DNA of 64,000 nt from Membranipora membranacea (Eukaryota; Bryozoa; Gymnolaemata; Cheilostomatida; Membraniporidae). Shown one piece after another: positions 299 through 63,490 of this stretch. Location of the stretch: assembly GCA_914767715.1 (NCBI GenBank), contig OU612067.1:26634162-26698161 (forward strand). Reading direction: 5' to 3'. The notes under the pieces were generated by a model that was not told the DNA's origin, made no database searches, and was given only the letters and a program-made list of their open reading frames with translations. Positions within the stretch are counted from its first letter, which is position 1, and each line of letters starts with the position of its first letter. The position numbers and the translations under genes were made by a program.

Positions 299-3200
299 AA
301 TACAAGTCATCGTCAGAATCAAGTGTGTTGCGAGTCCGAGCTATCCTCCAACTGAGGCCCAGATTGGTTTACTCTGTGACTATGCTAAAGATGGAATCAA
401 GAAACACCTCGAATATGACCTTCTCAATGTTGATGGTAAGCAAAGTAGATAAACTCTATGTCATTATCATTGAGCTCAGATTTAATAATTCTGTGACAAT
501 ATTGTGGGGTGTGAGCAGAGGCTAATAGTGTTGACCTTGTACTTTACACAGGATAGATATTATAACTAATTTCAGAGCTGATATTTTTGTTAAAGGATCT
601 GTAAACTATGCCGTCACAATCAACGTGGTCGAGACAAACTTGTTGGCTAAGACATTGGTTCTGCAGTGGTTACCATCGGTGCCATATATTCCTGCATGGA
701 CAAATGCGTTCAACCTCGGAATACCATCTCTTCCAATGTACTTAAGATTTCAGAGTAAGTAGGCTCCTTCTATAGTAATGGCTGCCAATGGGACAAGATG
801 CCGTAGACAAATCAAATCGTTATCTCCCCAAAAGTTAAGGATGTGAAGTGAATGATATTGGGGCCGGGCTTCCTTACTTGCAATTCATTAAGCCACCCAT
901 ATGCTCAGAGTTAACTTCCCATGAAGAAAACGGAGAAACATCTTGATAATCACCCAAGGTCACACGTACATTTCCATATCACCAGGTTATTGGAATAGAC
1001 TAAATTACAAAACAAAAACCAATATACTTGCAGTGTGACTAGTTCATATTTTTCAATTTTAGCATCAAACCTTTCATCAATATTGTTTTTATTAGGTTGG
1101 CTGCCTAAACGGACAGCGATCTCGCAGTTTATGAGGGATGCAGCAAGTGGACTGCTACATGATTCTGATACAGCTCAAAATGGCCTCATGTCATCACTGA
1201 CTCACCAGTACACCAGTGACTATTGGGGGAACCCGATAACGACGTCCCCATCTGTGCCAGCTGCACCACAAGCTATCAACTTGTTTTCAGTCTACAGCGG
1301 AGGAGATTGGTCTGATTACATTGACAGGTAAGACTTGCCATGGACAGAATTGACTTCCTAATTTGATAATATTACACCATTTTAGTCATGTTACAAAAGC
1401 TAAGTGCGCTGATAATGAGATTATATGAGAATAATTGTTGACTCTGTTTTAGATCAAGGGTATCTCAAGATGATCTAGAAGCATTGGTGAACTATGCAAC
1501 ATTTAAATTCATGTTCAACCATTGCCCAGCAGCTGCAAAGAGAGCTCCATGTTTAGTGGGCTGCAAACCTCCTCGTAAGTGGTTTAACTTCATGGCTTTT
1601 AATCATCTGTATTGGGTTCCCACAAACTAAGGTCAGGTGTCTTAACCTGCCTGACATAAGAAGTCATGATACCCTGTTGTATTCAAAACTCTTGACACTA
1701 ATAATCATCAACATTATTCTAATACTTATTCGATCAGCTATGCAAAGCACTTTTCAAGTCACACAAGATATGATTTCAATACTCAATCTATAAATGATAG
1801 TAAATATATTGTTACTGATGCACGATTCTTTTTTGTAATTTAACTATAAAGAGTTTCCTCAACTCCTTTTTGTAGTTATCTGCTCGTGGTTCAAGTGCCA
1901 CGAGTGCAAGCTTGATAGTCACTGTGCGTCACACCAATACTGTCAGAACAGATTCAATCCATTCCTCGATAATGAGTGCGTCAACAAATTATACAGTGGA
2001 TTATGGTGCAACAGGGACGCCATGTGTGAGAGTGGTGAGCGAAAATAGTTCACATAATAATAACAATACTATATTTTGAAAAAGTTTCACTTTTATTATT
2101 TTTGTCTCATTGACTTTTTGTTAAGTTGTCAAGTGTATCTGCGATGGTAATGCTCTTTTTGTGCTGTAATCGCTCGTCATGATACAGTACTGTAATGTTT
2201 TTGAATTTTTGAAAAGTGAAGTTTTCCAGCAGGAAATCTGAAGCCATTATAGGCCTAATTGAAAGTTGAAATCAAAGTATTTTTTCCTGGGCATCTTGTG
2301 GTTTAGTTATTAGTTTAGTTGTTAGCCAGTAAAGTGGGTTAAAATCGCAAGTGTTGTCTCCGTTCGAGGACTGAGAAATATCAGTGCCTTAAGGGCGCGG
2401 CCGCCGTATTCGGCGCCAAGTTGCTCTCAGTTTGCAGGCAGGTCGGAGCACACCTGGTGCGTCATATGAGCCCAGTAGTCAGTAGACCGCAGCGGGATTC
2501 GAACCCGGGACCTCAAACGCTTGCGCGTTAGAGGGCAGCCGCTCTAACCAACTGAGCTTTATCCCTATGTTTTTTGTGCCATATTTTCTTACATGACTTA
2601 AAGGAATTCACCAGTATGTTTTTCTACACATAGGAATGTGTGATGGCTTAAGATGTGTGGAGTGTGAAGAGGATCACCACTGCGGACCTAACCATTTCTG
2701 TCACTGGAAGGGTTTACCACTAGTAGTCAACAAGTGTGAGGAAAAGAGACCTATCGGTGCCTTCTGTCTTAAAGATCATGTGAGACATAGGCTTATTAAC
2801 CTCAGCTTTCGAATTGTTATAAAATGTTCGGAATGTTTCATTCTTATTTTTAGCATTTGTTTCGATCAATTTATCTACTGTTCTTGGTAACAATGTGACT
2901 TGATCAGTTGTGTTCTATCTTTACCAAACAGTTCTGTGAATCTGGTATGTGTGATGGAGGACGCTGTGTGGAATGTGAGAATAATTCTAACTGCCCTGCT
3001 GGAGAATGGTGTCGCTGGAAAGATTACCCTCTGGTGCTTAATAAATGTGTACCTTATCTACCCAATGGAGCTTTCTGTGGTCAGGATCACCAATGCGCTT
3101 CAGGTAGGTCTAATATTATATTGTGTCTGCTGCTGCTTTCAAGAACAAGCACCATACCTTGAGGTTTCGTGTTCTGTTGGTAGGTATAACACACATACAT

Positions 3201-3711
3201 CATATTATACAATCGCAAAACAGGAGGACACAAGCCGGTTGCTGAATAGACCAGAATGAATAGAACATTTTACCATTTTCAAGGGTTCAATACTTATTCG
3301 TTCATCATTTACCGAACCTTCGATCATACTGTTTACTTTCTGACAATCATTTAACACTTAGTCAATGCAAGAGACTTTTCTTGATTCTTTAAATTTCTTT
3401 TGATAACAGATGCATCAGACAATCCCTCAGCCATCACAACCACAAAATTGGAAATGTGTGAGAAATGTGATAATTTTACCTTACTTTAATGAGTCAGCCA
3501 CTGTTCTTTTTTTACAGCAATGTGTGACGGAGGACGTTGTGTTGAATGTGAGGAGCACTCTGACTGTCCTCCTCATCAATACTGTAGATGGAAGAATGCA
3601 CCCCTCGTACTCAACAAATGTACAAATAAGAAGTGTAAAGGCTGGTGCAGTATGGACGCTGCCTGTATATCCAATGACTGTAAATGGTACCTGCGCTGCG
3701 AAAAGTGCTAG
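299..3711 (+). CDS. Secreted cysteine-rich protein with four tandem Dickkopf-N-like modules (5' end outside window)
   Basis: Eight exons are joined in phase: 299-435, 578-754, 1096-1327, 1453-1574, 1876-2034, 2634-2779, 2932-3103 and 3518-3711 (TAG), giving about 445 residues. The first four exons encode a region I do not recognise, with few cysteines until its end (HCPAAAKRAPCLVGC). Exons 5-8 each encode one cysteine module of pattern C-x2-C-x4-(D/N)C/HC-x4-(Y/F/W)C-x9-C, then an (F/W)C-x2-D-x2-C-like end; for example CVECEEHSDCPPHQYC. The spacing resembles the N-terminal domain of Dickkopf proteins, but this is a pattern match only. One module per exon points to growth by exon duplication. 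The start lies upstream: exon 1 opens with the last base of a split codon, and a possible previous exon may end near base 15 (GA before GTGAGT). Extracellular location is inferred from cysteine content; no signal peptide is visible here. Confidence 0.75.
2488..2564 (-). repeat. tRNA-derived (SINE-like) segment in intron 5 of the cysteine-rich gene
   Basis: On the minus strand there is an A-box-like stretch (GCTCAGTTGGTTAGAGC) and a clean B box (GGGTTCGAATCCC) at tRNA-like distance. The outer ends do not pair into an acceptor stem, so this is a tRNA-derived repeat rather than a working tRNA gene. It sits between exons 5 and 6 (2035-2633). Confidence 0.6.
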
Positions 3712-3898
3712 GTATTTGATACTAAAAATGACAGACCAGACAACCACAAACCCTCACTCTATTTTTCTCTAACGCTACCTAATACCTTGACTTTTAATGA
3801 TATCCCGTTTTTGTAACTCAAAATATGACAAATGTATGTTGGTATCATTGTTTGCGTAATTGATTTCCTTTCTTGCTTTTTCCTTTCTTACATTTATT

Positions 3899-8700: not shown

Positions 8701-11514
8701 GAAGCTGTCTGAAAAGGAATCAATGATCTGCATCACTGACTCACAAATCAGCTGACATATTCATTGTCAATAAAATCAAGGCCTGTTCACAAATGCAGAG
8801 ATCGGCACTAGACACTGCAAACATAATCATCTGACTGCTGCCATTAGGTCATTAAAGGTGATCACCCTGACCATAGAAGTCACAAAACAAGGGCCAAACC
8901 TCAATATTTGTTGCTGTGACATCAGGGAATGTAGACTGTCGGCTAAGTTCTTCTCCATCAATGCTATTCGTAACCAAGCCCGTCCCTGAAACAAAACAAT
9001 GTATGTAAAACACATTTTTATATCAAAGTGGCAAAACACCTTCCTGGTTTGTCACACTCCTCTTAATACCCTTTGGTACAAACCACATAGAGTAAACTGT
9101 GTTTGGGGTGTCAGGATAAACAAAGTTGTACATTGTTAAGTCGCTTACACTGTTGTGATCCAGTATTTACCTTATCTAATCGAATCTGGCCTCATATGAC
9201 CAAAATAAGTGCATAGCTCAACTAGGCTACAATGATATCATTAGTGTTTATATGCATGATTGACAGTTTCGCAATCTACAAGTGTGACAATATCTCAAGT
9301 GTGATAAATCTCAAGTGTGATAAATACAAGTGTGATAAATCTCAAGGTTAACATGCTGACAGCTGTATCTCGCCAATGCGTGATGGGTAGTGACTGATTA
9401 TTTACAGATGCAATGAGCAACGTACTCCATATTAAATCTATACGGATACCATGTATGTGGACCAATTGATCGATAGTTTTTCTTTTGGGAAATCACACGA
9501 GATGTTCAATAACCATATCAAAACACTGTTGACATATCTCCATACATTTCATGTTTGATTAACATCGGCCTCTCCTCAAAGCTACCTTGCTGTAGCCAAC
9601 AGCTGTCTACAGTTACCACTCATTCACAACGAAACGCTGATAACAGCTTTCTTAGAACACCAATAATGTCATCTCTATCCAAGTGTCTTTGCTCTATCGG
9701 ATGATCAATCCATGAGAACTTAATTTTGGTAACTGTACCACAAAATTTGCAACACGTTCATATATTTCTATGGTTTGATGGTCTAGACTGGGATATTATA
9801 TAAGGTGTCTCATAATGGACAGCAATCTGTTTCACCTTCAATTCAAGCCTATAATTATGGGTGAGATATTGGCAGGATATTAGAATATTAATTCTTACGA
9901 TTAGTGTTAACTGTGCAAGGTTTCAGGTGGTAAATTTGATACCAATTATACTGATGCTACACATTTCTCTCATTTGTATATACGCTAATGAAACTGAAAA
10001 TAATAACTGCGTAAATATGGTTAGGAGGCAAAAATGTTCTCACAACTGTCATCTTTAAAAATATATTCTCAAGTAATTAAACCTCATAATCAGTGATTCA
10101 CTTTCACTGAGACAGGATCTGAGGTATTCAGTAATTTTTGGCATTTTATATGGAATGTTGACAGGTGGCACACTCAACGGCAGATAACTTACCCTAGCTA
10201 CGTTTGACTTGAGGGAGGACATTGCCAACACTTTTGAGATTGCAGCATTCTTTTTAGGTCCTGCATCTTTAAGGCAAACCCAGAATGAGGGTCGGTTTGT
10301 ATCAAACAATGATAGAGAAGCTGAAAGTACAGATATACCTTATCGGCACAGATGTAATAATACTGGTGTGAGTAGGGATAAGCTGGTGTGCGAATAATTA
10401 AAAAGAAATCATCCAATCACAAGGAACAAAAAATAGTTCTTAATACTCAAAGTTGATACCATTGGCTGAGACTGGCATGTGTAATACTAATCTGGCCTCC
10501 ATATCTTTAAAGGGCAACCAAGGTTTCAAACAACTTCTCATTGATGGCCATTGATTCATAGCAGATTGCACCTTCTACATGGGGAAAAAGACAAAATATA
10601 ATTCGGATGCTTATTCAGCCAGAATTCTTGTGAAACATTTCTTCCATCAGGTACTCAAACTCAGCTAAAAGAGAATACCACATAGCAGTTTCCTGTTCCT
10701 GTTATTATTTAGCCTGTGCTCTATAATTATTACAGCAAAGTCTTGGAACCTCCCCTAAACTGAAGTGTTACCCAACTTAGAGTCAGCAACTACTTTGAGT
10801 TTTGCATCGCGTAATGCACAAAGCTGATGCTGCCCAGCACATTATTTGCTACCCATAAATGCATAGCTGCGAAACCTTGGTTGCCCTTTAAGCTCCTTTT
10901 TATCTTAAAACCTTTCCTTTACTAGAAAAAAATATGTAATGTGAAAGAGTGAAACAGTGCATGCTTGTTCACACCAATAATTAGCATTCCTGTCAAGTCA
11001 GCAATATAGACTTTGTACGGTAGTCTGACCTTTCATCCTGTGGTTGAGTATGTGTTCTATTGTAGTGAGCAGATTAATAACTTCTGGTGAGTCTTCATCC
11101 AGGCCTCCGACGCTGGCCCTATCAATTACAGACTTGATCACCAACCTTTGTAAAACATGAAATATGACCGGTCAATACAATCCATGTTCAGGTATTGTGT
11201 TCATTTATGGCATATGTACTAGCAATGCACTACACTCTAAGAACATTATACAAATACCATAGAATATGGCAGGTTTGAGTAGGCTGCAGGAGTGCTGTGA
11301 ACTGTCCAGACTTCAAAATATAAATACATTTTTCTCCAGCCAATATGAGAGAAATAGATAGCACCTGCTGATTCTGTGAATAGTCTATAGATTTATTGAT
11401 TTAGATTTATGATTCATTCAAAACCCAGATTAGCAAATTGACTTACCTACAAACAAGCACCAAATTGTGTTTCTCAACATAGAAATTCCGTTCTTCTGCT
11501 GCACACTTATCCAT
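5798..11514 (-). CDS. RUNDC3: RUN domain-containing protein 3-like
   Basis: Eight exons, in gene order 11447-11514, 11030-11145, 10193-10320, 8900-8985, 8495-8584, 7446-7659, 6973-7130 and 5798-5963, join without phase conflict into 341 residues. Near the start VEKHNLVLVCR matches the opening of the RUNDC3 RUN domain. GRAWLRIALMEK followed by HADMIGLSAVDF are the RUN core motifs. An acidic linker (DDDD) follows, then a coiled coil beginning GYLEEMLKKAESE and ending LETVILELQNE, as in RUNDC3A/B, and a serine-rich tail. RUNDC3A in vertebrates is an effector of Rap2-type small GTPases; that role here is inferred. The usual CLKG segment after the RUN core is missing, and the protein is shorter than vertebrate RUNDC3A. 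ATG 11514 is chosen because it directly precedes the conserved start. The locus divides from RWDD4 across a 2.6-kb spacer. Confidence 0.88.
6551..6653. repeat. Minisatellite of ATCACAG(A) units
   Basis: Short tandem array of 7-8-bp units reading ATCACAGA/ATCACAG, with a few substitutions (ATCATAG, ATCGCAG). It lies inside the last intron (5964-6972) of the RUNDC3-like gene. Confidence 0.9.
9293..9346. repeat. Short tandem repeat, CTCAAGTGTGATAAAT units
   Basis: About three imperfect copies of a 14-16-bp unit (CTCAAGTGTGATAAAT) in the intron between RUNDC3-like exons 3 and 4. Confidence 0.85.
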
Positions 11515-13230: not shown

Positions 13231-13467
13231 CCTGTGGATGGAACAAACTTGTTGTAGGATTGAGGGCAGTGACTAGTAGTAGGGCATTGCCACTATAATA
13301 GTGGCAATGCCCTACTACTAGTCACTGCCCTCAATCCTACAAGTTTGTTCCATCCACAGGCCTTCTGTAGTTGGTGCAAGTCCAGTGGTCGAGTGCCCCA
13401 GTGGTCGGGGCCTCGACCACTGGGGCACTCGACCACTGGACTTGCACCAACTACAGAAGGCCTGTGG
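13231..13467. repeat. Two abutting near-perfect foldback repeats (MITE-like)
   Basis: Foldback A: left arm 13231-13296 and right arm 13298-13360 pair over about 63 bases around a single-base centre, with only a 3-base indel. Foldback B: arms 13361-13406 and 13415-13460 are perfect 46-base complements around an 8-base loop. The B pairing extends outward through CCACAGG (13354-13360) and CCTGTGG (13461-13467). Arms this perfect mean recent origin or ongoing correction. The sequence could form strong cruciforms or hairpin RNA. No coding function is seen. A decayed relative of foldback B lies at 48586-48711. Confidence 0.9.
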
Positions 13468-16908: not shown

Positions 16909-18928
16909 TTAGTTTGCAATGTAGATGGAGGAGTGTTTCTCCATCATTTGAATGTCTCTCTCTAGTTGTTTCATCTCATTCTCTAGGCGCTCCTTGCGAT
17001 GTTTCTTAGGTAATGTATCAGTAACCACAGATAGGCCTTGGTATTGATGATATAAATCCTCCCAGTTTGTTTTTAATCCTGATAGTATTGAGGTTCTCTC
17101 GGCCTCTGTCAGTTGTTTCATCGCTCCTAGAAAAATACATCAGGTTTTTATCAACAATGTGTCATGTTCGAAAGTATTTCATTTGATCAAACATATGCAT
17201 TGTACAGAACACTTGGATTTTTAAATATCAAATATTTTCCATCATATTTTATCGGAGTTGTCCATATGGTATTGAGGTAGTCACAACTCCCATCACATCA
17301 CTTTCCCCCTCATATGTATTTCCTGAGAAAAGTCACTGTATATTGATGAACATGGCTTTGAACTTTGTTGATTGTTCGAAAATTTACCTCGCTTGAAACT
17401 CTCAGCTATGTATGAGTTATATTCTTCTTGTGCCCTCTGCATCTCATCCTTTCTTTTCTTCAGATATGTTGGTACATCTCCGTATTCCTATAACAATTGA
17501 ACGCTCACTCATAAAATTTGTCTGTGTTTGATGAGATGAGATCTTAGATGCAACTATGATCAAACCAGAAATTGGTTATAGCAATCTAGCTATCCCAGTC
17601 ATCATTCAATGTCTTCTCTTCGCTGTTTGTCTTGGGTGAAAAGTCGGATTTTTGTCATCAATGTTCTATCCAAGGTGTGAAAAGTTGGCATGGGTTTGTC
17701 TCATTAAATCTTCTTCAAAATAATGATAATGGTACTAATGATCCAATAATAACGAAACCTTTACATACCTTCTTGTGAACAAATTTAGGCTCTAGTCCGG
17801 AAGGTATGAGGTTATGTGTGTCTCCTATTCTAGTGTCAGCAAACTTCTTCTCTGGTTTGCCTGGTACTGACATGATTGTCTCAACTGCATTCTTTGTGAT
17901 GAAGTTTTTGGTGGTTTTCAGACCGAGAAGAGGAGGCTCGCTTTTGGATGTCGGCACAGATGGTTTCTTTCTGTTTGCATCAGTATACTCAAACTTTTGC
18001 TCTACAAACATATTACATGGTCAAATCTAAATTTCGTATGTTTTAGTATCAGTTTCTGCTCTCCCCTCAAGTGGATCCTCCTCCCTTAGGACTTACACGT
18101 CTTGCTACAACTTAAAAGCTTTCCAGTGGTATGAATAGCATTGAAAAGAAACCTGATAAAAAAAGCTTTTTTACATCAGTCAATTTTGGTGAGCAGTAGA
18201 ACCCTGAAATATGTTTGTGCAGCAACAAAAAATAGATTTCATTCTGTTTGTAAACATTTGCCTTCGATCAATTGCCCTGTCACCCTACTTCGCTATCAAG
18301 CCAAAATTTATAGTCTCAAATCTAAGCGCACATCACAATATTCACTCACTCTGTGGCAGATGAGGTTCTTTTTCACGCTTCTTCAGGTAATTATCTGGCT
18401 GTGGTTTGTTGACTTCAGCTGGACCCATTGTCCGCGCAGGCTTCTTTGTTGCCTTCTCTTCAACCTTGACATTTTCTCTGAATTTTGAGGTGTGTCTGAA
18501 TGAAAGACAGAAAATAATACCGTCAAAATAAATCCTGAATATGGAGATTCAGACAGAATAGGACTGGCTTAGTTAGTAATTGTTTTCTCAATTGATATCA
18601 ATTAAGTGATAAAGTCACGCTTATCAAAGTGATGGAAGTGTGAGCCTTGCTTTATTACTTTGTTTGACTAGCTCACATAACCGGCATGTGATCAACCTGG
18701 ATCAACCATCTATAGCTAAGTGACCTGGGGAAAAGACAGATGCATTAAACACACTATTGACAAATCAAGGGGTTTGTCAATTTAAGTTGTAAAATAAAAT
18801 AGTAGAATCCCAACTAATATCTTTCTACTTTTGAACGAATGATTTACTCACTTCTTGGGTTTAGGCTGTTTAACCTCCTCATGTGGAATGAGGTTGTAAA
18901 TACTTTCTGTCATAATATAGGAATCCAT
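16909..18928 (-). CDS. ENKUR: Enkurin, axonemal adaptor protein
   Basis: Five exons, 18852-18928, 18350-18495, 17769-18001, 17388-17487 and 16909-17126, join in phase into 257 residues, about the length of mammalian enkurin. SIYNLIP near the N-terminus, ARTMGPAEV, the KNFITKNAVETIM block and SGLEPKFVHKK are family landmarks. The C-terminal enkurin domain contains GLKTNWEDLYHQYQGLSVV, PKKHRKERLENEMKQLERD and the ending IYIAN. In mammals enkurin binds calmodulin and TRPC channels in sperm and is a microtubule inner protein of motile cilia. A proline-containing segment (PSVPTSKSEPP) sits where the mammalian SH3-binding region lies. The gene indicates motile cilia or flagella. It is head-to-head with NOC2L, with about 1.1 kb between the start codons. 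Confidence 0.97.
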
Positions 18929-20015
18929 TTTGGTGAAGTGACACTTCTTACTAAGTCTATAACTTGATTTTCTATGAGCTCCAAGTCCTTGTGACAAAGA
19001 CTGAGTTGTATCCAAGCACAAAATGTTGTTCTGTTACTAGGTGTATCCAGGAAGCAGAAAACAAAACATTTCCTCTAAGTAATAGCTCGACTACAAATTA
19101 TTTATTTTGTCACAGAATGGATAGTAAAACCTAAATTTCTAGTTCCATTTTCTGCTCCACATTGATTTGCTCTACCTGTCCTATGTAAGACACTTTTACT
19201 TAGGCAATTTTATTTCTCTTTGCCCTTCCAACTGTCTCTCGTTGTATTTTTCAATAACATGATTTGCCATCAACAAAGGAGGACTATGTGGAATAATGGT
19301 CGAATGGGCCTGTTACACGTCATGCATTGGTCCTGGAGAGTATAGTAATGTATAGATAGTATAGTAGTATATATAGTAATAAATAAAAATAATAGTCCAA
19401 CTCCAAGGAAAGAAGCCTAGACCAGAGTTAAACTTACTTACTCACTTCCTTACTTACTTCCCATTTGATCCTAACCGCCTTGGCCCCATAGGGTGGGCAT
19501 GCAAGCTATATAATAATACACTAGCTACGGGTCATTCATTCATGAGAGACGCTGTTAGTGCGTCTAGTTAGCTATTAGAGTTGTTGTGAGGGTGCCTTTA
19601 ACAGTTTTAGAGTCTTTAAGGGACAAGAGTAATGAGGCTGTCTTGTGCAGCTGTGGGATTCAGGGGCTGGCGCAGTCGTGAAGGCTTGACAGGATATCAT
19701 GAGGGATGCACCACTTGGTGCACACCTATATCATTTCAAATCTCGGATTATTGTAATATAAATATGATTCTGAGGGCATGTACCGTCCGTAGTATGTTGG
19801 TTTACTCAAGTCATGCATTGGCGTTTAGGGCTTCAAAACATCAACACTGATCATACAATGTATTGCATTGGCAGTGTGAGTCCCCCATATATTTTATGAC
19901 GGTTCACTCTTCTGATCTTATTGTACAAATAGGAGAGTCTTGGATAATGCTTTGTTCTTGATCAGCCACGTTGTTCCGCTTGAGAAAGTTTTTCGTACTT
20001 TCAGACTCACAAGTT
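18929..20015. promoter_or_regulatory. Shared divergent promoter region of enkurin and NOC2L
   Basis: This 1.1-kb gap separates two start codons on opposite strands and must hold both promoters. An acceptor-like site (TTTCAG) directly before the NOC2L start exon at 20005 suggests an upstream non-coding or short coding exon here. I see no convincing TATA box or coding frame. Confidence 0.5.
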
Positions 20016-34721: not shown

Positions 34722-37700
34722 TCATGATGGGGTAGTATTCTGTATTGTGGTACAGTTACAGTGATTGGTCTGTGGGTTATCCGGTAGACTATTAAACTGT
34801 ACCATCACCAGATAATAGCTGACTATCACTCCAACAAGCTGCAAGTATTCAAACAAATCGGTAGTTACATAAATACAACTTTGATAATGGACGACTAAGT
34901 AGTTTCCTGGTGTGGTGCACTGGTTCGACTCTAAATCAAGTTTGTTCCAATTGCCTGCATTCCAGTTGCTCTTCTACTGGTCACACGTGACCAGTGGACC
35001 AGGAGAAATTCAGAATGCAGGCAAACTTGGTCTAGTTCGACTCCACAGAACAATCCAAAGAGACTATTATGAGTGCTATAATGCGAATAGAAAAATTTCC
35101 CATTAGCTTTTAGAAACCATGAACATTGCTACAGGGCATTGTAGCCAAACGCTCTGAATGCGCAGTTTAGAGTTGATGACCTTGTCAGAATTTTCAATTA
35201 TCCATGACGTTAAATATTTTGGACTCTGTATGAGTTTTCATGGTTCAGCACAAACGCCAGTTAATATTACATTATACAGGTGTTCAATGAAACTTGAGAA
35301 TGCGTTAACGCAACGGTTGTTAATTTATTCCCTGGACATACCGTCATGCCGAGTTCTTTATTTATATCAAGCAGGCCAACAGCAGTGAGAGGCTCGGGGG
35401 TCTGTATTCTGTTCTGAAATAGCTGCATCTAAATAAAACATCGCAAAAGTCAGGAATAAAGTTGCTCTGTTTTCACACCTGATAAATTTTAGTTCAAACC
35501 GAAACGATAAACGACATAAATGTGATTATTGGCCATAGTATTGAAGGTTTTAGTGTTGTAAAACAAGATTGGAATACTTTTGTTCAGAAAATACAGTCAG
35601 AACTCAGAGCCTAACTTGTACAGGAAAATAGGACTATACAGTTGGATGCCTAATTACACCATTGCGTAGTGGATTCTTGCCGTTTATTACCATTGCCTAA
35701 CAGTTTCATACCTTATTGACGGAAAACAATTAAAGGAACCAGATTTTTCAACAGTGCTATAATTTGTTGTCTGTTTGATTGTTGGAAAGTTTATACTTCA
35801 AGGTCCCATACACTGTGTTTCCATGGGGTCGATCTGAGCAAATTTCGGATCTGTGCGAATAGGATGCCTTCCTATTCACACCGACCTCAATTCTCGATAG
35901 GTGATTGTAAGTTTCAGCTCAGTCACAGCCCATGGGTACAAATGCAGTTTTCTAGGGCAAGCCAAGAAGTGATAACTTGGTTCAAAGCTCAAAATTGAAA
36001 TGGAAACACAGTGATTGTTGCATTTTTATTTGAGATCACTGCTCCACCAATCAGAATGCTGACTGTAAGTGACACGGAAAGTGTCACGACAAGCTGTGGT
36101 GGTAGGGGTCGTGTTTTCCCGCCCCCATTAAAACTCTCTATGATTAGATAGTAGATACTGTTTCTAAGTCTAACTCTTACCTGGTATATCTGTAGATTAG
36201 TGACAGGTACCTCTGTCTGTATCACTCTCTGTATTATTTTATATCCTTCTGTCGTCTAAAATTACAATTGAAAATATCATATATATTATAAATGTATGAT
36301 CGTACATGAATGTAAAACTGGAAACCACATCTAGCCTTACAAAACAGATAAAATATTACTCATTTTGATGCAGCAGTTTTAAGAAATGAGAGGTAAGGGC
36401 CATTGTTTCTGTGTCTTAAATAAGAATAATTAATCTACCCTAGGAGTAGCCTTGTTCACTCGGCCACATGAACAAGGATACTCAAATTTGCCATTCCATT
36501 CATGCTTAAAATATCTAAATTTAAGGCTAGCTCACAATTACTTGCCCTATTTATACTACAGATAGAGACTACCGACTAGATGCCAAAATATAGTGCTAGC
36601 TAACATTAAGTCACCCTAAGTTAGCTAAACTTAGCTCTAGTTAACAATTACTCCTCTAGAGTACATCACTGGATTGTCAGGTAACTTACCTCGTTAAATA
36701 CTTTGTGACAGAAGAATATGATGATGACTAGCGCCGCGACAGACATAATGATGTAGAAAAAGTATATTCCAAAATCGTAAAGTTCAGGATTGTTCACAGA
36801 CACTGACGCAAGATACAGTATACATAATAGAATCAAAGTATTCCCTCCGACCAATATTCCAAATTTGAACCTGAAAAGTATGTCAACCCGCTCGACCAGG
36901 TCACAAAGGTCCAGATGTGCTTTTCTGTAAGCTTCAAGATTCTGAAAGACCCTCGCAGCTGAGTTATTAATATCAGACTCTAAGCACTTATTATAGTCTG
37001 AGAGTAGTGTCCAGAGCACAAAGCATATAGAGACAAAGTATGCCTGTCCGTACACCCAGTGTAGGGTGACTATCGAGACAGCTGTTCGGACTACTAGTTT
37101 GATCAGTATTAGCTGCAGCTCAGAGGCAGAATTCTCTGTTTTCGTCCCTATCGTGGCATCATCGTATTCAGGAATTCTGTAATCCAGCACACGTAACCCA
37201 CAATTCCCCAGCGCAAATATCCAGGATAACAAAACAACGATCCTTATAAACCATCTCATTCTCTTCATCCTGATTTTGACGCCCAGCTTAATCAGGCAAT
37301 CTTCGACTTTACTAAGCTGTTTGTAATAGTCGATTAGTCCGCATTTCAGATGGCTAATTACGAAAAAAGCAGAGCACTGAACCCCGAGCCAGCCGGTGAT
37401 GATTAAAGAGGCTAGAGATCGGACAAGTCTATCAAGACCAGAATCCTCGGTCTCATCCCACGCACAGAGGAAGCCAGTAGCTAATCCTGCTAGAAGGAGA
37501 ATGCTTAGTGTCGCGTGTACTACTCCCGCTAGTATCCTCAGACATCTTGGTTTGATAAATACAGAAGGTCCGGATAGCGTACCGACGATGATCAGGCTAA
37601 ATCTGATAGGCGAGTCCAACTTCACCACCTCGCTTCTCTGTATCTCTTTGTCACAAGAGCGCTCTGCATCATCTGCCTCAAAGCTATCCACTCTGGTCAG

Positions 37701-37874
37701 CTTAGTTGTTGAGTTATTGATGTTGAGGTTGTAGTCTTTGGCAGTGCTGAAGGTATAATTATCCTTAGGAGTTTCAGTCTTGGTGAAGTTGTTATGGAGC
37801 GTGGTAGTCGAAGTGAATTTCTTCTCAGTGAATGGTGCAGGCTCAACAGATGAGGTTTTAATAAAGTGAGGCAT
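34722..37874 (-). CDS. Gustatory receptor-like (GRL) seven-transmembrane protein
   Basis: Four exons, 36690-37874, 36181-36255, 36010-36093 and 34722-34838, give 486 residues; all three introns are phase 0. The N-terminus (residues 1-110) is polar and threonine-rich. Seven hydrophobic helices lie near 112-137, 153-176, 208-230, 262-292, 336-358, 366-392 and 432-463. Before helix 5 is the block EAYRKAHLDLCDLVERVDIL; after helix 6 comes CHKVFNE. The last exon starts LVGVIVSYYLVMVQF, so residues 455-463 match the family signature (T/S)Y-hhhhh-QF. The 23-residue tail beyond it has two sequons (N476, N482), which fits an extracellular C-terminus. Insect members are ligand-gated cation channels with this inverted topology; GRLs are also known in cnidarians, placozoans and other invertebrates. 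Ligand and expression are unknown. The weak point is the exon-3 donor (ACT then GTGTTT); spacing, phase and family architecture support it. Confidence 0.82.
34935..35031. repeat. Imperfect foldback repeat in GRL intron 3
   Basis: Left arm 34935-34984 (CAAGTTTGTTCCAATTGCCT and onward) pairs with 34987-35031, which ends GAATGCAGGCAAACTTG, around CACGTG. It is imperfect, with small gaps. The pattern suggests an old MITE. A loosely similar stretch lies near 31390-31440 in the GPI-type gene. Confidence 0.6.
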
Positions 37875-41800: not shown

Positions 41801-44800
41801 AAGCACCTGCAGAAGCTAAAAGAGCTGACTCTGAATCTGCCCGTGAAATATGCCGACTGCGCTGCTTCATCCTAATAAGACAAAACAATGTAGATCTTAT
41901 TACATACAATGAAAGCTGGTCACAATTAGAATCCTGCTTATTCGAAATTCTGACTTATTTAACGAAATCCCTGCTTATACAGACAAAATTTTGAATAAAG
42001 TGATACTGTAAAAATGTATAATAAATGTATAAGGCTTGAGCAAAATTAGCTTCCTGGGTTATCAGAAAAATCTCTTGCTAGACCAGGTTGCATTGTTGGA
42101 ATAACTTAAAAATAATGTTTTTTGACTCTTCATTGGTTTATCACCCCTCTAAGCTCTGGCAGAACTGTATCAATAAATGTGCGTTTTTTAAAACTTTTTA
42201 ACGGGATGCTTATCATATCTACGGATACTATGGAGACAACACTTCAAGCTCAACACTTGGCTCGGGATGGGTGATTTTCACACCTCAGATCATGTTATAT
42301 ATAAGGTAAACTTACAAATGAGGGAATTTTCACTGCTCAGATCATGTTATATATAAGGTAAACTTACAAATGAGGGAATTTTCCCACCTCAGATCATGTT
42401 ATATATAAGGTGAACTTACAAATGAGGGAATTTTCACACCTCAGATCATGTTATATATAAGGTAAACTTACAAATGAGGGAATTTTCACACCTCAGATCA
42501 TGTTATATATATAAGGTGAACTTACAAATGAGGGAATTTTCACACCTCAGATCATGTTATATATAAGGTAAACTTACAAATGAGGGAATTTTCACACCTC
42601 AGATCATGTTATATATAAGGTAAACTTACAAATGAGGGAATTTTCACACCTCGGATCATGTTATATATAAGGTAAACTTACAAATGAGGGAATTTTCACA
42701 CCTCAGATCATGTTATATATAAGGTAAACTTACAAATGAGGGAATTTTCACACCTCAGATCATGTTATATATATAAGGTGAACTTACAAATGAGGGAATT
42801 TTCACACCTCAGATCATGTTATATATAAGGTAAACTTACAAATGAGGGAATTTTCACACCTCAGATCATGTTATATACATAATATTATATATATAATATA
42901 ATATATATAAGATAAACTTACAAATGAGGGAATTTGACGATGAATTCATCTTCCTGTATGAACTTTAGAAAGTAAAAACAAAAGAAAAATATCTCTTCTC
43001 CTTTCTGAAGTCTGTCTGGTAGATTGTGTCTAAAAAACAACATTAATTTACATTTCAGAATGCATTGTCTGGTACTGCAGCCCAAGAATCTTGACATTTT
43101 TTTTTCTCAATATCAACAAGAAAGAGGTTTGTTAAGTCACACTTCCCTTCTAAAAACAATCTCCATGTCAAGGTTGATCATAATCTCTGAGACCAGTGAT
43201 TATTAGTTGAGAGATACGTCAACATGACAAGTATGAATAGATGTGTGAAATTCATTTGTATACTTCCAGCTCAATATATCAATACTATTATAGCTCTGGG
43301 CTCTAGCTTTATATAATCATAATTATAAACTTTATTTAACACCGATCGATGCAAGAAGCAAATAAGACCATGTGTTTATCCAGGACTAATCATCATTTGC
43401 TTATTTTCACGGTTCTGGAATGACAAATCAGAAATGGGGGAAAAGACAACCACCATCTACATCTTAAATTATAAGAGTGAACAGTTATCGCATCATAGCC
43501 TGATGCCTCACAGTTTTCTGCATTGTTCTAACATTGATGACATTTTAGTGCCATCAGATCAAGAGTATGGAGGATATTTTCATATTGAAAATCGATCTTT
43601 ATATATCGCAAGCAGCAGATGAAATCACCAAAACACAAAATGAAGATATTGGAAGCTTTCTGACGTGAGGTAATGTTTTTTCAAGCTAGTAGAAAGTGTT
43701 CTGCTGCAGTGACTTACCCAAACAGATACCAGTCATATGCGACAGTGAGATAGAGTATCTCCAGAGCGGATAGTGATTTGTGTATGAGACCGTCGGCCCA
43801 CAGAGAGAGACGTAGTAAGGATACAAACAGTGGAGTACGATCCCAGCCTGATATACAGTGCACAAGTAAACCTGAGTCTCCTGTCAGTATATAATAATAA
43901 GTTACAAAGTGGGTAAATGATTTATGTAATAACAGATCAAATGAATCAATCGTCTCATGAGCAATGACGCCTCATGAGCAATGACGTCTCATGAGCAATG
44001 ACGCACATTGTCAGGTGATGTGACATTATGAAGAACATGCAAATCCAATAATTATGATGTAGATATACTGAAATCCACTTGTCTAAACATAACTTAGTGA
44101 GTAATAATACAAGCATAAGGTTTCCGTATCAACACGACTTTGGTCTGCAGGGGTGAGGGTCAGAATAATGGCCAGGTGGGATGAAATTTGTATTTTACCA
44201 TATGATTGAGTCAATTTACCTTCCTGAATGTGTTTGAGCATGACATGTAGATAATTCTGAGTAATCTGGATGAGTGTCCATGTTTTATATTGATTCCAGT
44301 GAATGGTGGGAACCCGTAAATGTTTCTCGTTTGGTAATTCTAATCGTGTGTTGACAAAATCCTGACTCCAGTCAAAAACAGATCTGTCTCCATCATAATC
44401 CTGATCTCTCCATGTCTGTAATAAACAAAGGGATAGCCATATTGTACTTCAATTATTTTAATATGATCTTTATAATGATTGTTTGCGCTCAGCAAGATTG
44501 CGCATCGGCAGCATCCTAGATGCAAAAACCAATCGGTTACCGCCTTAAAGAACTCAGACTAATACAGATAATGAGTAACATAATCTGTATGCCATACAGA
44601 TATGGCACCAGCTGGTAAACTGTGACGCTGATTGCTCTATTACTGAATGTATATTTTGATTTTAGTTAGTGCACACCATCCAATGAGTTCTGAAAACATT
44701 CTGTGAGTAACAAGATATCTTACCTTAAAGAATTCACAGCCTGGATATGGTAGACTCCACACTGAGAACTCACCATACCTGTTCAGCTTATCCACTTTCT

Positions 44801-48088: not shown

Positions 48089-48585
48089 CGTACGGTATAC
48101 CTACACAAAAATAATAAATCTAGAATCTAGAATCTAGGTCCTGTAATGTTTTTATGTGAAGCTAATACTAGGCCTATGACTAGGGCAGGCCATGAATCTG
48201 CTGTACAGCCTCATTTCAGGCCTTATTTATTGATGGAGTAGTTTAATTGCTAAAACATATTCTCTAGTTAGTGGCCTACCCTCAGTCCGAGATAATGTGG
48301 GTTTATCATGAAACAAAAAGGTTCAGCCTAGCTTACTACTAGTAGAAATGGTATGAGAGAACACTGCTCTTACTGTCTGATAGTGCTACAGCCCTGAGTT
48401 CCAAGCTAGTGCCTTTGCCATCTCTACTCTAGCTTACAGTCTTAAAATTAAGGCTGATTATCACAAGTATGATATGTAAAAAAGAAGATATCTACTTTTA
48501 CAACTACTGTCTGTGTAGGCATCTTTGGCCCTACAACTAGCTAGGTGGAAAGAGTTAGTAAGTAGACTAAACTGAAATGTCCACT

Positions 48586-48711
48586 GGCCTTCTTTAGTTC
48601 TAGCAATACCAGTGGATTAGTACCTCAGTGCTCAAGGCCTCGACCACTGGAACATTCAACTACTGGTATTGCACCAACTACAACAAAGTCAAAGGGAATT
48701 GTTGGCCTGTG
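48586..48711. repeat. Decayed copy of foldback B
   Basis: The stretch contains CTCAAGGCCTCGACCACTGG and GGTATTGCACCAACTACA, similar in order to the centre and right arm of the foldback at 13361-13460. Its two arms still pair imperfectly (GCAATACCAGT with ACTGGTATTGC). It lies 5' of the MTMR14 coding start. Confidence 0.75.
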
Positions 48712-59042: not shown

Positions 59043-59309
59043 GATTTTTGCATATCGGTAGCAAAATAGTGCAAGCAGAGAGGTATTTCAATAGCTCACT
59101 GAGCTGTTGGCTACTTTCAGAAAACAACTTACGGTTACGGTAAAATTTCTCCAGTTATAAAGCACCCATTTGAAAAAAAAACTGACCTTGAAGGGATTCG
59201 AACCCACAACAATCTTATTAACAATGATTATAAGGCGGACGCTCTACACACTGAGCTATTCAGCCACTCACGGAACTCCATGGGCCGTGAGTGTTAATAT
59301 ACGCCACTG
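59043..59309 (-). mobile_element. Truncated copy of the tRNA-carrying hAT-type MITE
   Basis: Reads as the reverse complement of the element at 63088-63490, starting from its TIR (CAGTGGCGTATATT at 59309 leftward). It keeps the tRNA-like segment (59182-59270) and the GAGGTATTTCAATAGCTCAC stretch. Its far end is missing where it joins the inverted repeat at 59042. Confidence 0.8.
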
Positions 59310-60134
59310 ATTGTCATTGCCACGTGAGCAGCTGTGAGAATCCTTGACATGCTCTTAAACTGTGCCGAGATAACTGGTAGTAGCATTCCATTATCCACCA
59401 TGTTTAATATTTGCTTAATTTTGCCTGCAATAGAGGCTTTTGTATTCTTCGGTAGTTTTATATTTCAATAAAAATATTACTTCTACTAATATTTGCCAAT
59501 ATACTGCTAATATTTGACAATAAGAGATCAGTGGGGGACTCCCCTATTTCACCGATGAACTAAAGGTTTAGTTCATTGATTTCACTATCATGAAAGTGTA
59601 CTTGCTCCTTTATTAAATTCAGCCACTCATTTTACAAGTTTATTGTGCAAGACCAGTACCATGCACAAGCAAGTGAGGTACCGCTGAGGTTTAAATTTTA
59701 AAGGCTTATATTAGTAATCCATTAATATCGATTCACCAGCCAAAGCTTGCCTCAGGTGAGCTACCATGTAAGTATAACTTCACCAACAAGGTTTGCCTAA
59801 GTTAGCAGATTCATTTGAAAATGATGACCAATATATCATCCTACGATTTATACTATCCATGCACATATGTCTCAAAGTGTTAAAACCATACATTGCTAGA
59901 TGTGGATCTTTATACTAACTAAGACAAGGAAGTGAACATGAATTCAGTAAGTGAACTTGCTCAGATATGCTAGTGATAGTGAGTTGAGGCTGCACAAAAG
60001 GGTTTGATTATGGTTCATCGCGATCTATACTTTTGGCTTAACCAACAATCATATATTGCATATATTGCATGCATGCATGCAACAACTAAAACCTGTATCT
60101 ACCACATTTTTTTCCTAATTTACAGCTGCTTATA
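59310..60134. other. Upstream region of the orphan membrane-protein gene
   Basis: No coding exon seen. A good acceptor (pyrimidine tract then TTACAG, ending at 60125) lies nine bases before the ATG, so a non-coding 5' exon probably sits in this stretch. Confidence 0.5.
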
Positions 60135-61193
60135 ATGGAATGGGCCACATATGAGACACAAACAGAGTGGTCAGATATAATGCCATCAGTTGTCACTACA
60201 TGGCTTCTATTCGTCATATTGTTTTGTTGGACACAGAATATCACCTTCCTAGAGTTTCATTGGAGTAGAGACAACATAATGGCACATTTATTCATAGTCA
60301 TTGTTCTATTTCTAAACGTTCTCTTCTTCACTGGCTTACCCAGACGATACATAATAGTAGAAAAATACTTTTGGCTTGCTGCAGTGGGAACAATCTGCGG
60401 TCTTTTGTATGGTATTAAACAGCAGGGATTATGTTGGCAGAGATTTAGAATCATTATCTTTGACAGTGTAATCACAGGCTGTTGTTTCCCTGGTTTTCAT
60501 GGTTGTTGTATAATACTTCTACCCATACTCTCATCACCTTGGGTTAGTATTTTGATAGTCATTTGTTTGCTGCTTATTGCCACAGCATATATTTTGGTTC
60601 AATTGTTGATCCAGCTTTTCACATCATTTCACCAATGCCTCTCTGTAGGGAAGGCATTTCATACCGTTGTAAGGGAGATGGCTGGAGCTACTGCAGAGGC
60701 TCTGTGTAGAAAAATCAGTGATGTGTCAGCGGCGGACGTTTCCCCATTAACCAATAAGATTGATGAATATCATGGGAAAGTTCTTGAAGCACTAAACAAG
60801 GCCAATACAACCAGTGTATTGAATCTCGTGCTGGCTACTTTGAGGGCCTACTTCAAGATGCAAAATGCAATTGCTGATAAAGATCGGAAAGAAGCAAAAC
60901 AAAATAAGTGTAAGCTTTCCACAGAAAAGCAAAGTGCTGGACAAACCACTACAGAACAGCCAACTGCTGGACAAACCACTACAGAACAGCCAACTGCTGG
61001 ACAAACTACTACAGAACAGCCAACTGCTGGACAAACTACTACAGATGAATACAGGATAGGACAATCCGTTGCGGCAGAGCAAAATGCTGATATTAGGACA
61101 GAAAATGCAAAACTGACATGTAAAAAAAAGAGAAGTAACTGGTTTCAAAGGAATAAGAAAAAGAAACCTCCCATTGGAAAAAATACACCCTAG
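60135..61193 (+). CDS. Orphan multi-pass membrane protein with 10-residue repeats
   Basis: One coding exon encodes 352 residues. Four or five hydrophobic segments occupy residues 18-180, including VVTTWLLFVILFCW, AHLFIVIVLFLNVLFF, CCIILLPIL and SILIVICLLLIATAYILVQL. The next ~90 residues are helical and contain AGATAEALCRKISD. Then a decapeptide, AGQTTTEQPT, is repeated almost four times (DNA 60935-61047), and a strongly basic tail ends KKKKPPIGKNTP. I do not recognise the family. The basic tail is probably cytosolic. An AATAAA at 61276-61281 is a good poly(A) signal. Neighbours do not suggest a role. Possible origins include a lineage-specific gene or a domesticated mobile-element gene; nothing seen decides between them. 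Confidence 0.7.
   Translation: MEWATYETQTEWSDIMPSVVTTWLLFVILFCWTQNITFLEFHWSRDNIMAHLFIVIVLFLNVLFFTGLPRRYIIVEKYFWLAAVGTICGLLYGIKQQGLCWQRFRIIIFDSVITGCCFPGFHGCCIILLPILSSPWVSILIVICLLLIATAYILVQLLIQLFTSFHQCLSVGKAFHTVVREMAGATAEALCRKISDVSAADVSPLTNKIDEYHGKVLEALNKANTTSVLNLVLATLRAYFKMQNAIADKDRKEAKQNKCKLSTEKQSAGQTTTEQPTAGQTTTEQPTAGQTTTEQPTAGQTTTDEYRIGQSVAAEQNADIRTENAKLTCKKKRSNWFQRNKKKKPPIGKNTP
60935..61047. repeat. 30-bp coding tandem repeat
   Basis: Unit GCTGGACAAACCACTACAGA plus ten bases, 3.7 copies and nearly identical, encoding AGQTTTEQPT. Near identity at synonymous sites points to recent expansion. Confidence 0.95.
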
Positions 61194-61692: not shown

Positions 61693-62408
61693 TTATCTCA
61701 CAGGATGGCTATCAGATCGAAAATACACTCTCCTCCTGAGCGTATGCTGAGGAAGAGGCATCTGCTGTGCCATAGTGTCTTTGAATTTCTGCTCCTTTTG
61801 CATCACTTGATTATTGACCTCTGTGAGCATGGACAGCAGGTCCACCGAGTTATGGAACTTTTCTAGGATATCACATAGCGCCTGTATGTACCATGACCCC
61901 TTGCTTTTACTCCGGTAGCTTACAAATCCTAGCACTGCAATGGAAAATGAAACTGTATTTATATTTGCTGCAAATTTTTATTCTATGACTCACCACTGAT
62001 TCAGGCTAATTCTTGATGTGGGTTATGCAGCCAAGAGTGTTTTGCAATTCAGTTGAAAAGCAAATGTAAACAATAATTACCGCCCCATCTCTTATCATGA
62101 GCATGTTTTCATATAAAAGGCTTAGAGTGGAATTTCTTTTTTGTACTACAATCGTAGACAAACATTCTATCATTGTGATGTGTTATTTCTGTGAAAAAGT
62201 ACCTTGACTTTCTCACAAAAAGAATGAATAACCACAACATATATATTGACGCTGAGAGCTGTGGACATACCTGTAGCTAAGCCTAGTAAGTAGCCAGGCT
62301 GTCTGGGTATGTTTGTTACACTTGACAATCTACCCCCCTGATAATCCGTCTCTAGATCACCTCCTCCGTCTGTAGCTGATCCATCCAATACTGGTAGTGA
62401 TTCCGATT
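61693..62408 (-). CDS. Caspase, C-terminal part (linker and small subunit)
   Basis: Two exons, 62271-62408 and 61693-61934 (stop), join in phase 1. The protein reads through a linker to IPRQPGYLLGLAT, then GFVSYRSKSKGSWYIQALCD, the substrate-pocket region of the caspase p10 subunit. It goes on to LLSMLTEVNNQVMQKEQKFK and ends after LRRRVYF, as caspases do near their terminal beta strand. The linker has two likely processing sites, PVLD before Gly and LETD before Tyr. LETD is the classic caspase-8-type tetrapeptide, so an initiator-like, self-processed caspase is suggested. The p20 subunit with the catalytic His and Cys is not visible up to base 64000, so it lies outside or behind a long intron. 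Confidence 0.9.
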
Positions 62409-63087: not shown

Positions 63088-63490
63088 CAGTGGCGTATAT
63101 TACCACTCACGGCCCATCGATTTCCGTGAGTGGCTGAATAGCTCAGTGTGTAGAGCGTCCGCTTTACAATCACTGTTTATCAGATTGTTGTGGGTTCGAA
63201 TCCCGTCACGGTCAGTATTTTTTCAAATGGGTGTTTTATAACTGGAGCATTTTTACCGTAATCTTCTACTGCTATTGAGTTGTTTTCTGAAAGTACCCAA
63301 CAGCTCAGTGAGCTTTTGAAATACCTCTCTGCTTGCACTATTTTGCTACCGATATGCAAAAATTTCCGTGGTGGGAGGGCGCTTAAGCGCCCCTCCCACA
63401 CCCTCCCCGCCACGCCTACAGCCTGCGCCCGATCATTATGCTCATCTCTAAAAAGTCAGTGAGTGAAATTTTTTAGAATATACGCCCCTG
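63088..63490 (+). mobile_element. hAT-type MITE carrying a tRNA-like segment, intact ends
   Basis: The left end CAGTGGCGTATATT matches the inverse of the right end (CAGGGGCGTATATT) at 13 of 14 bases. CAATCAGA flanks both ends (63080-63087 and 63491-63498) as a perfect 8-bp target-site duplication. CAGNG ends with 8-bp duplications are typical of hAT elements. At 63130-63215 it holds A-box-like TAGCTCAGTGTGTAGAGC and B-box GGGTTCGAATCCC motifs. Length is 403 bp, with no coding capacity. Confidence 0.85.

Follow-up and report, generated by a model that had tools for sequence, protein, structure and literature searches.

A 64-kb stretch of DNA (the window) carries on its minus strand, at 37874-34722, a predicted four-exon gene whose 487-residue product belongs to the gustatory receptor/odorant receptor (GR/OR) superfamily, and which is very probably a gustatory-receptor-like (GRL) animal gene that is still intact. 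The family identity, read from the sequence, is firm: an earlier note on this DNA had called the gene a true member of the superfamily, and profile score, helix 7 motif, intron position and phase, and the fold modelled for helices 1-6 all agree with that claim. For now, the gene counts as a new and divergent addition to a family already known.

The profile search that the note had proposed gave 48.3 bits (E 1.2e-12) for the full 487-residue model against Pfam 7tm_7, over the curated cut-off of 26.6. Exons 2-4 alone reached 29.3 bits (E 6.9e-7), the best stretch lying in exons 3-4 and covering profile positions 327-367 of 370. For exon 1, a search of 5.8 billion proteins, with scoring limited to the 8000 candidates that had most words in common, found three relatives, all of them exon-1 open reading frames (ORFs): P0001 (97% identical), P0002 (71%) and P0003 (48%). 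Matched to 7tm_7, the exon-1 protein scored 29.8 bits for P0002 and 30.3 bits for P0003. Together with the score of exons 2-4, these values mean that both halves of the gene independently indicate one family.

The gene as modelled also has both features given for animal GRLs in PMC7746228 (in part), namely conserved introns towards the 3′ end and the motif of helix 7. Exon 4 consists of LVGVIV, the helix 7 motif SYYLVMVQF, a 23-residue tail and a stop codon, so that the splice acceptor of the last intron lies exactly six codons ahead of the motif. Both the family consensus and the position of the motif relative to the last intron follow a family rule stated in a part of PMC2680840. Compared with the consensus TYhhhhhQF, the three fixed positions other than the first are exact, and a relaxed pattern, [TS][YF]h5Q[FYW], occurred only once across the six frames of the 64 kb, at SYYLVMVQF itself. 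The gene, as modelled from sequence, carries exactly three introns; its exons are of whole codons and the six intron ends read AG/GT, and therefore all three introns are of phase 0. Three introns are general in the family but not universal (PMC9998090, in part), and some Daphnia genes are described as being without the family's introns, by loss.

The earlier note had proposed a 395-codon first exon with six helices followed by three small phase-0 exons. The first exon stands, with six long helices seen both by hydropathy (overlapping segments merged by hand) and in the structure model. Likewise, exons 2 and 4 were retained with phase-0 GT-AG junctions, but exon 3, given in the note as GGAVISNKN, had to be replaced, this stretch being a read-through of exon 2's own frame into intron 2. 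When GGAVISNKN was nevertheless built in as exon 3 (from a CACAG acceptor before LVVTLS to an end at ...NATIT, limits that we chose, as the note gave no exact ones), no 7tm_7 match was obtained at E up to 10. Leaving out exon 3 altogether also gave no 7tm_7 match; starting it at an alternative acceptor (NRIQ...) lowered the score from 48.3 to 45.0 bits, and skipping exon 2 lowered it to 37.9 bits. The spacing of 18 residues from Gly to Ser, which the note had taken as that of the family, is indeed present, but it fits both versions of exon 3 and therefore cannot discriminate between them.

Structural comparison of the exon 1 model with solved receptors showed the GR/OR fold for helices 1-6. 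The insect GRs BmGr9 and Gr43a (cryo-electron microscopy structures 8uvu, 8jm9 and others) were 9-12% identical in structural alignment and, unlike them, the window protein has a long N-terminal tail. Insect ORs, Orco (6c70, 7lid, 8v00 and others) and Gr64a gave lower Z than BmGr9 and Gr43a, an order of GR and OR structures that, the model being so weak, says little about kinship. With the N-terminus inside, the predicted topology (hand-set helix limits) places Lys or Arg at 34 of 243 inside residues and at 4 of 66 outside residues, with net charges of +3 and -10 respectively, a distribution that would favour such an inverted topology.

In channels of this kind the pore is lined by helix 7. 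By analogy with insect GRs and ORs, which are described as tetrameric cation channels in a part of PMC11526382, the protein would span the membrane, N-terminus inside and C-terminus outside, and four subunits would form a cation channel lined by their seventh helices. The channel might then open when a small molecule, or a stimulus of another kind, acts on the bundle of helices. The Gln of the motif (residue 463) would lie near the pore, and the long N-terminal tail would lie in the cytoplasm, outside the conserved core. The stimulus need not be a tastant: developmental work, or a role related to light or temperature, is a variant of the GRL identification rather than its opposite, and we hold it to be a serious possibility, at somewhat under even chances. 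Roles of this sort are reported for members of the family in Nematostella and C. elegans: LITE-1 and GUR-3 are reported to take part in responses to light, and a Nematostella member may contribute to patterning (Benton, 2020, in part). Nothing observed here speaks against such a role.

We infer that the four exons are spliced as modelled, and only infer it because each of the three relatives is an unspliced exon-1 ORF and no transcript accompanies them. In P0001, P0002 and P0003 exon 1 is open to its end and is followed by Val (GTN), matching the phase-0 GT donor; beyond this point P0002 and P0003 diverge, and P0001 resembles the window's own intron read-through. A second protein search with alignment (8000 candidates scored) gave nothing beyond these three, and a translated pattern search for exon 1 relatives confirmed none of 45 candidate stretches in genome_contigs and none of eight in viral_contigs. 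Within the window tblastn found no further gene copies: besides the four exons it returned a single match, at chance level (E 6.0). That the gene has decayed, or is a pseudogene, would fit the fact that neither a spliced relative, among the 8000 candidates scored, nor a transcript turned up, but is very improbable, because exon 1 is open across 395 codons, the splice sites are canonical, and exon 1 has been kept open in relatives down to 48% identity. The open exon and the Val in all three rather argue that the gene is functional and its splice site conserved.

Several observations weigh against an intact GRL gene. Transcript support is absent and all relatives found (n = 3) are unspliced; exon 1 of the window alone reached only 13.3 bits to 7tm_7, under the Pfam cut-off, P0001 alone had no Pfam match, and position 1 of the motif is Ser, not Thr. 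The exon 1 model is of low confidence (mean predicted local distance difference test score, pLDDT, 49.7; below 50 in 197 of 395 residues) and is without helix 7, the lowest family entries in the structural comparison (Gr64a, 14.9) barely exceed the value of ~14 typical of unmatched helical models, and no solved GR/OR structure was matched by sequence, whether with the single sequence or with a four-row profile. The sequence following exon 1 offers 57 candidate internal exons (60-120 bp, phase 0) and 35 candidate last exons, which can be combined in order in 9468 ways; multiplied by this number, the E-value of 1.2e-12 is still ~1e-8 and therefore more than chance. No G protein-coupled receptor (GPCR) profile matched the protein. 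That it is some other seven-helix protein, a GPCR or a transporter, which resembles the family by chance, as the low pLDDT and the score of exon 1 alone might suggest, is thus improbable in the extreme.

The window is animal DNA, judging by its enkurin gene. Enkurin searching gave 380 matches, and in the best of the 120 listed 82% of the query was covered at 90% identity. Named matches among these 120 were from gastropods (59-66%, and 70% for one partial sequence), annelids (61-62%), echinoderms (60-62%) and cnidarians (58-59%); all are animals, and therefore so is the host. As full-length named matches reach only 58-66% (70% for the one partial), the host is no near relative of the named species listed. 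Sponge enkurin was absent from the named rows of the 120 listed, most rows being without a species name. Placement within animals was tried with a quick tree of the window and all 120 listed matches, in which some named molluscs were unlabelled, and with a careful tree of 40 rows (the window, P0004 and 38 hand-picked matches, 81 listed matches being left out). The window and P0004 share a stem of 0.73 and 0.66 respectively, placed between the sampled phyla without support. Approximately unbiased tests rejected no clade: p was 0.179 with cnidarians (including two cnidarian-like rows without species name), 0.386 with molluscs, 0.127 with ambulacrarians and 0.18 with spiralians.

When 149 ORFs were scanned with Pfam (of the 150 with the greatest length, at least 66 residues each, all but the separately scanned exon 1), the matches above chance level were an enkurin, a caspase, a RUN domain, two Noc2 pieces and Dickkopf_N-like repeats, besides a weak match to a myotubularin-like phosphatase. 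Two guessed locations for the Noc2 pieces gave no Pfam match. The ORF at 60102-61190 had no PHROGs match, and no match of the Pfam scan could be attributed to it. Scanning the window with Rfam and for tRNAs gave one tRNA-like match over the gathering score (63132-63214), inside an inverted pair which, with this tRNA-like core, looks like a tRNA-derived short interspersed nuclear element. A 22-base word of a repeat element found no match in genome_contigs or viral_contigs, and the element itself none in plasmids. Near-perfect palindromes, one place holding a related copy, are possibly small inverted-repeat elements.

Table. The predicted GRL gene and other features of the window.
Feature	Position	Strand	Description
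Exon 1	36690..37874	-	395 codons; start codon, ~110-residue hydrophilic N-terminus, helices 1-6; phase 0 end before GTAAGT
Intron 1	36256..36689	-	434 bp, phase 0
Exon 2	36181..36255	-	TTEGYKIIQRVIQTEVPVTNLQIYQ; 25 codons between TTTTAG and GTAAGA, both junctions phase 0
Intron 2	35429..36180	-	752 bp, phase 0; includes the reading-frame stretch GGAVISNKN
Exon 3 (corrected)	35342..35428	-	MQLFQNRIQTPEPLTAVGLLDINKELGMT; 29 codons between TTTATTTAG and GTATGT, both junctions phase 0
Intron 3	34839..35341	-	503 bp, phase 0
Exon 4	34722..34838	-	begins LVGVIVSYYLVMVQF; 38 codons and stop
Helix 7 motif	34794..34820	-	SYYLVMVQF; family consensus TYhhhhhQF
Enkurin gene	16912-19033	-	about five exons joined by eye; last exon Pfam Enkurin, E 1.5e-22
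Dickkopf_N-like cysteine-rich repeat ORFs	1839-3769	+	two tested: 25.2 and 24.2 bits (cut-off 25)
RUN-domain exon	8830-9051	-	E 2.1e-5, 25.1 bits (cut-off 22)
Near-perfect palindromes	13252-13467 and 48580-48682		copy at 48580 ~78% alike
Tandem array	42222-42935		unit of 52-54 bp, about a dozen copies
ORF with myotubularin-like phosphatase loop	43717-43971	-	HCISGWDRTP; Pfam 18.6, below the cut-off of 25
Inverted pair	59044-59309 and 63088-63363		~270 bp, 89% alike
Single-exon ORF	60102-61190	+	hydrophobic stretches; repeated 10-residue unit TTTEQPTAGQ
Caspase C-terminal exon	61696-61977	-	Peptidase_C14, E 2.7e-14

What the gene means depends on its host. In the passages concerned of PMC7746228 and PMC11526382, the reported range of GRLs takes in protostomes, echinoderms, hemichordates, cnidarians and placozoans but not chordates; sponges are missing from the lists in the introduction of the former and in section 2.3.1 of the latter. 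The open-licence literature searched, as far as its accessible parts go, yielded neither a report of a sponge GRL nor an explicit report of absence, which does not prove that nothing has been published, and the text of a paper on Amphimedon GPCRs (PMC4302439) contains neither '7tm_7' nor 'gustatory'. The note had tied novelty to a host that is a sponge or of some other lineage thought to lack these receptors. In our judgement, which was not computed, it is doubtful that the gene comes from a sponge or from a different lineage not known to have a published GRL, e.g. the tunicates; only then would the result be a notable one. With a sponge as host, the animal form of the GRL, with its motif and its three phase-0 introns at the 3′ end, would go back to the earliest animals, and a GRL would be present in animals without neurons; in a phylum that already has known GRLs, the gene would add another divergent member. 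Being apparently intact and having the full 3′ intron set, the gene offers a concrete probe, comprising the sequence, the exons and the three relatives, of how deep this channel family runs in animals.

The wider superfamily of seven-helix proteins takes in plant DUF3537 proteins and the GRLs of unicellular organisms (PMC7746228 and PMC9998090, in part). From their description in a part of PMC7746228, the GRLs of non-insect animals (Cnidaria, Placozoa, Annelida, Nematoda, Mollusca, Echinodermata and Hemichordata) have the helix 7 motif and the conserved 3′ introns in common with the gene described here. In contrast, the DUF3537 and unicellular members are described there as being without the animal intron positions, which the window gene, as modelled, appears to possess.
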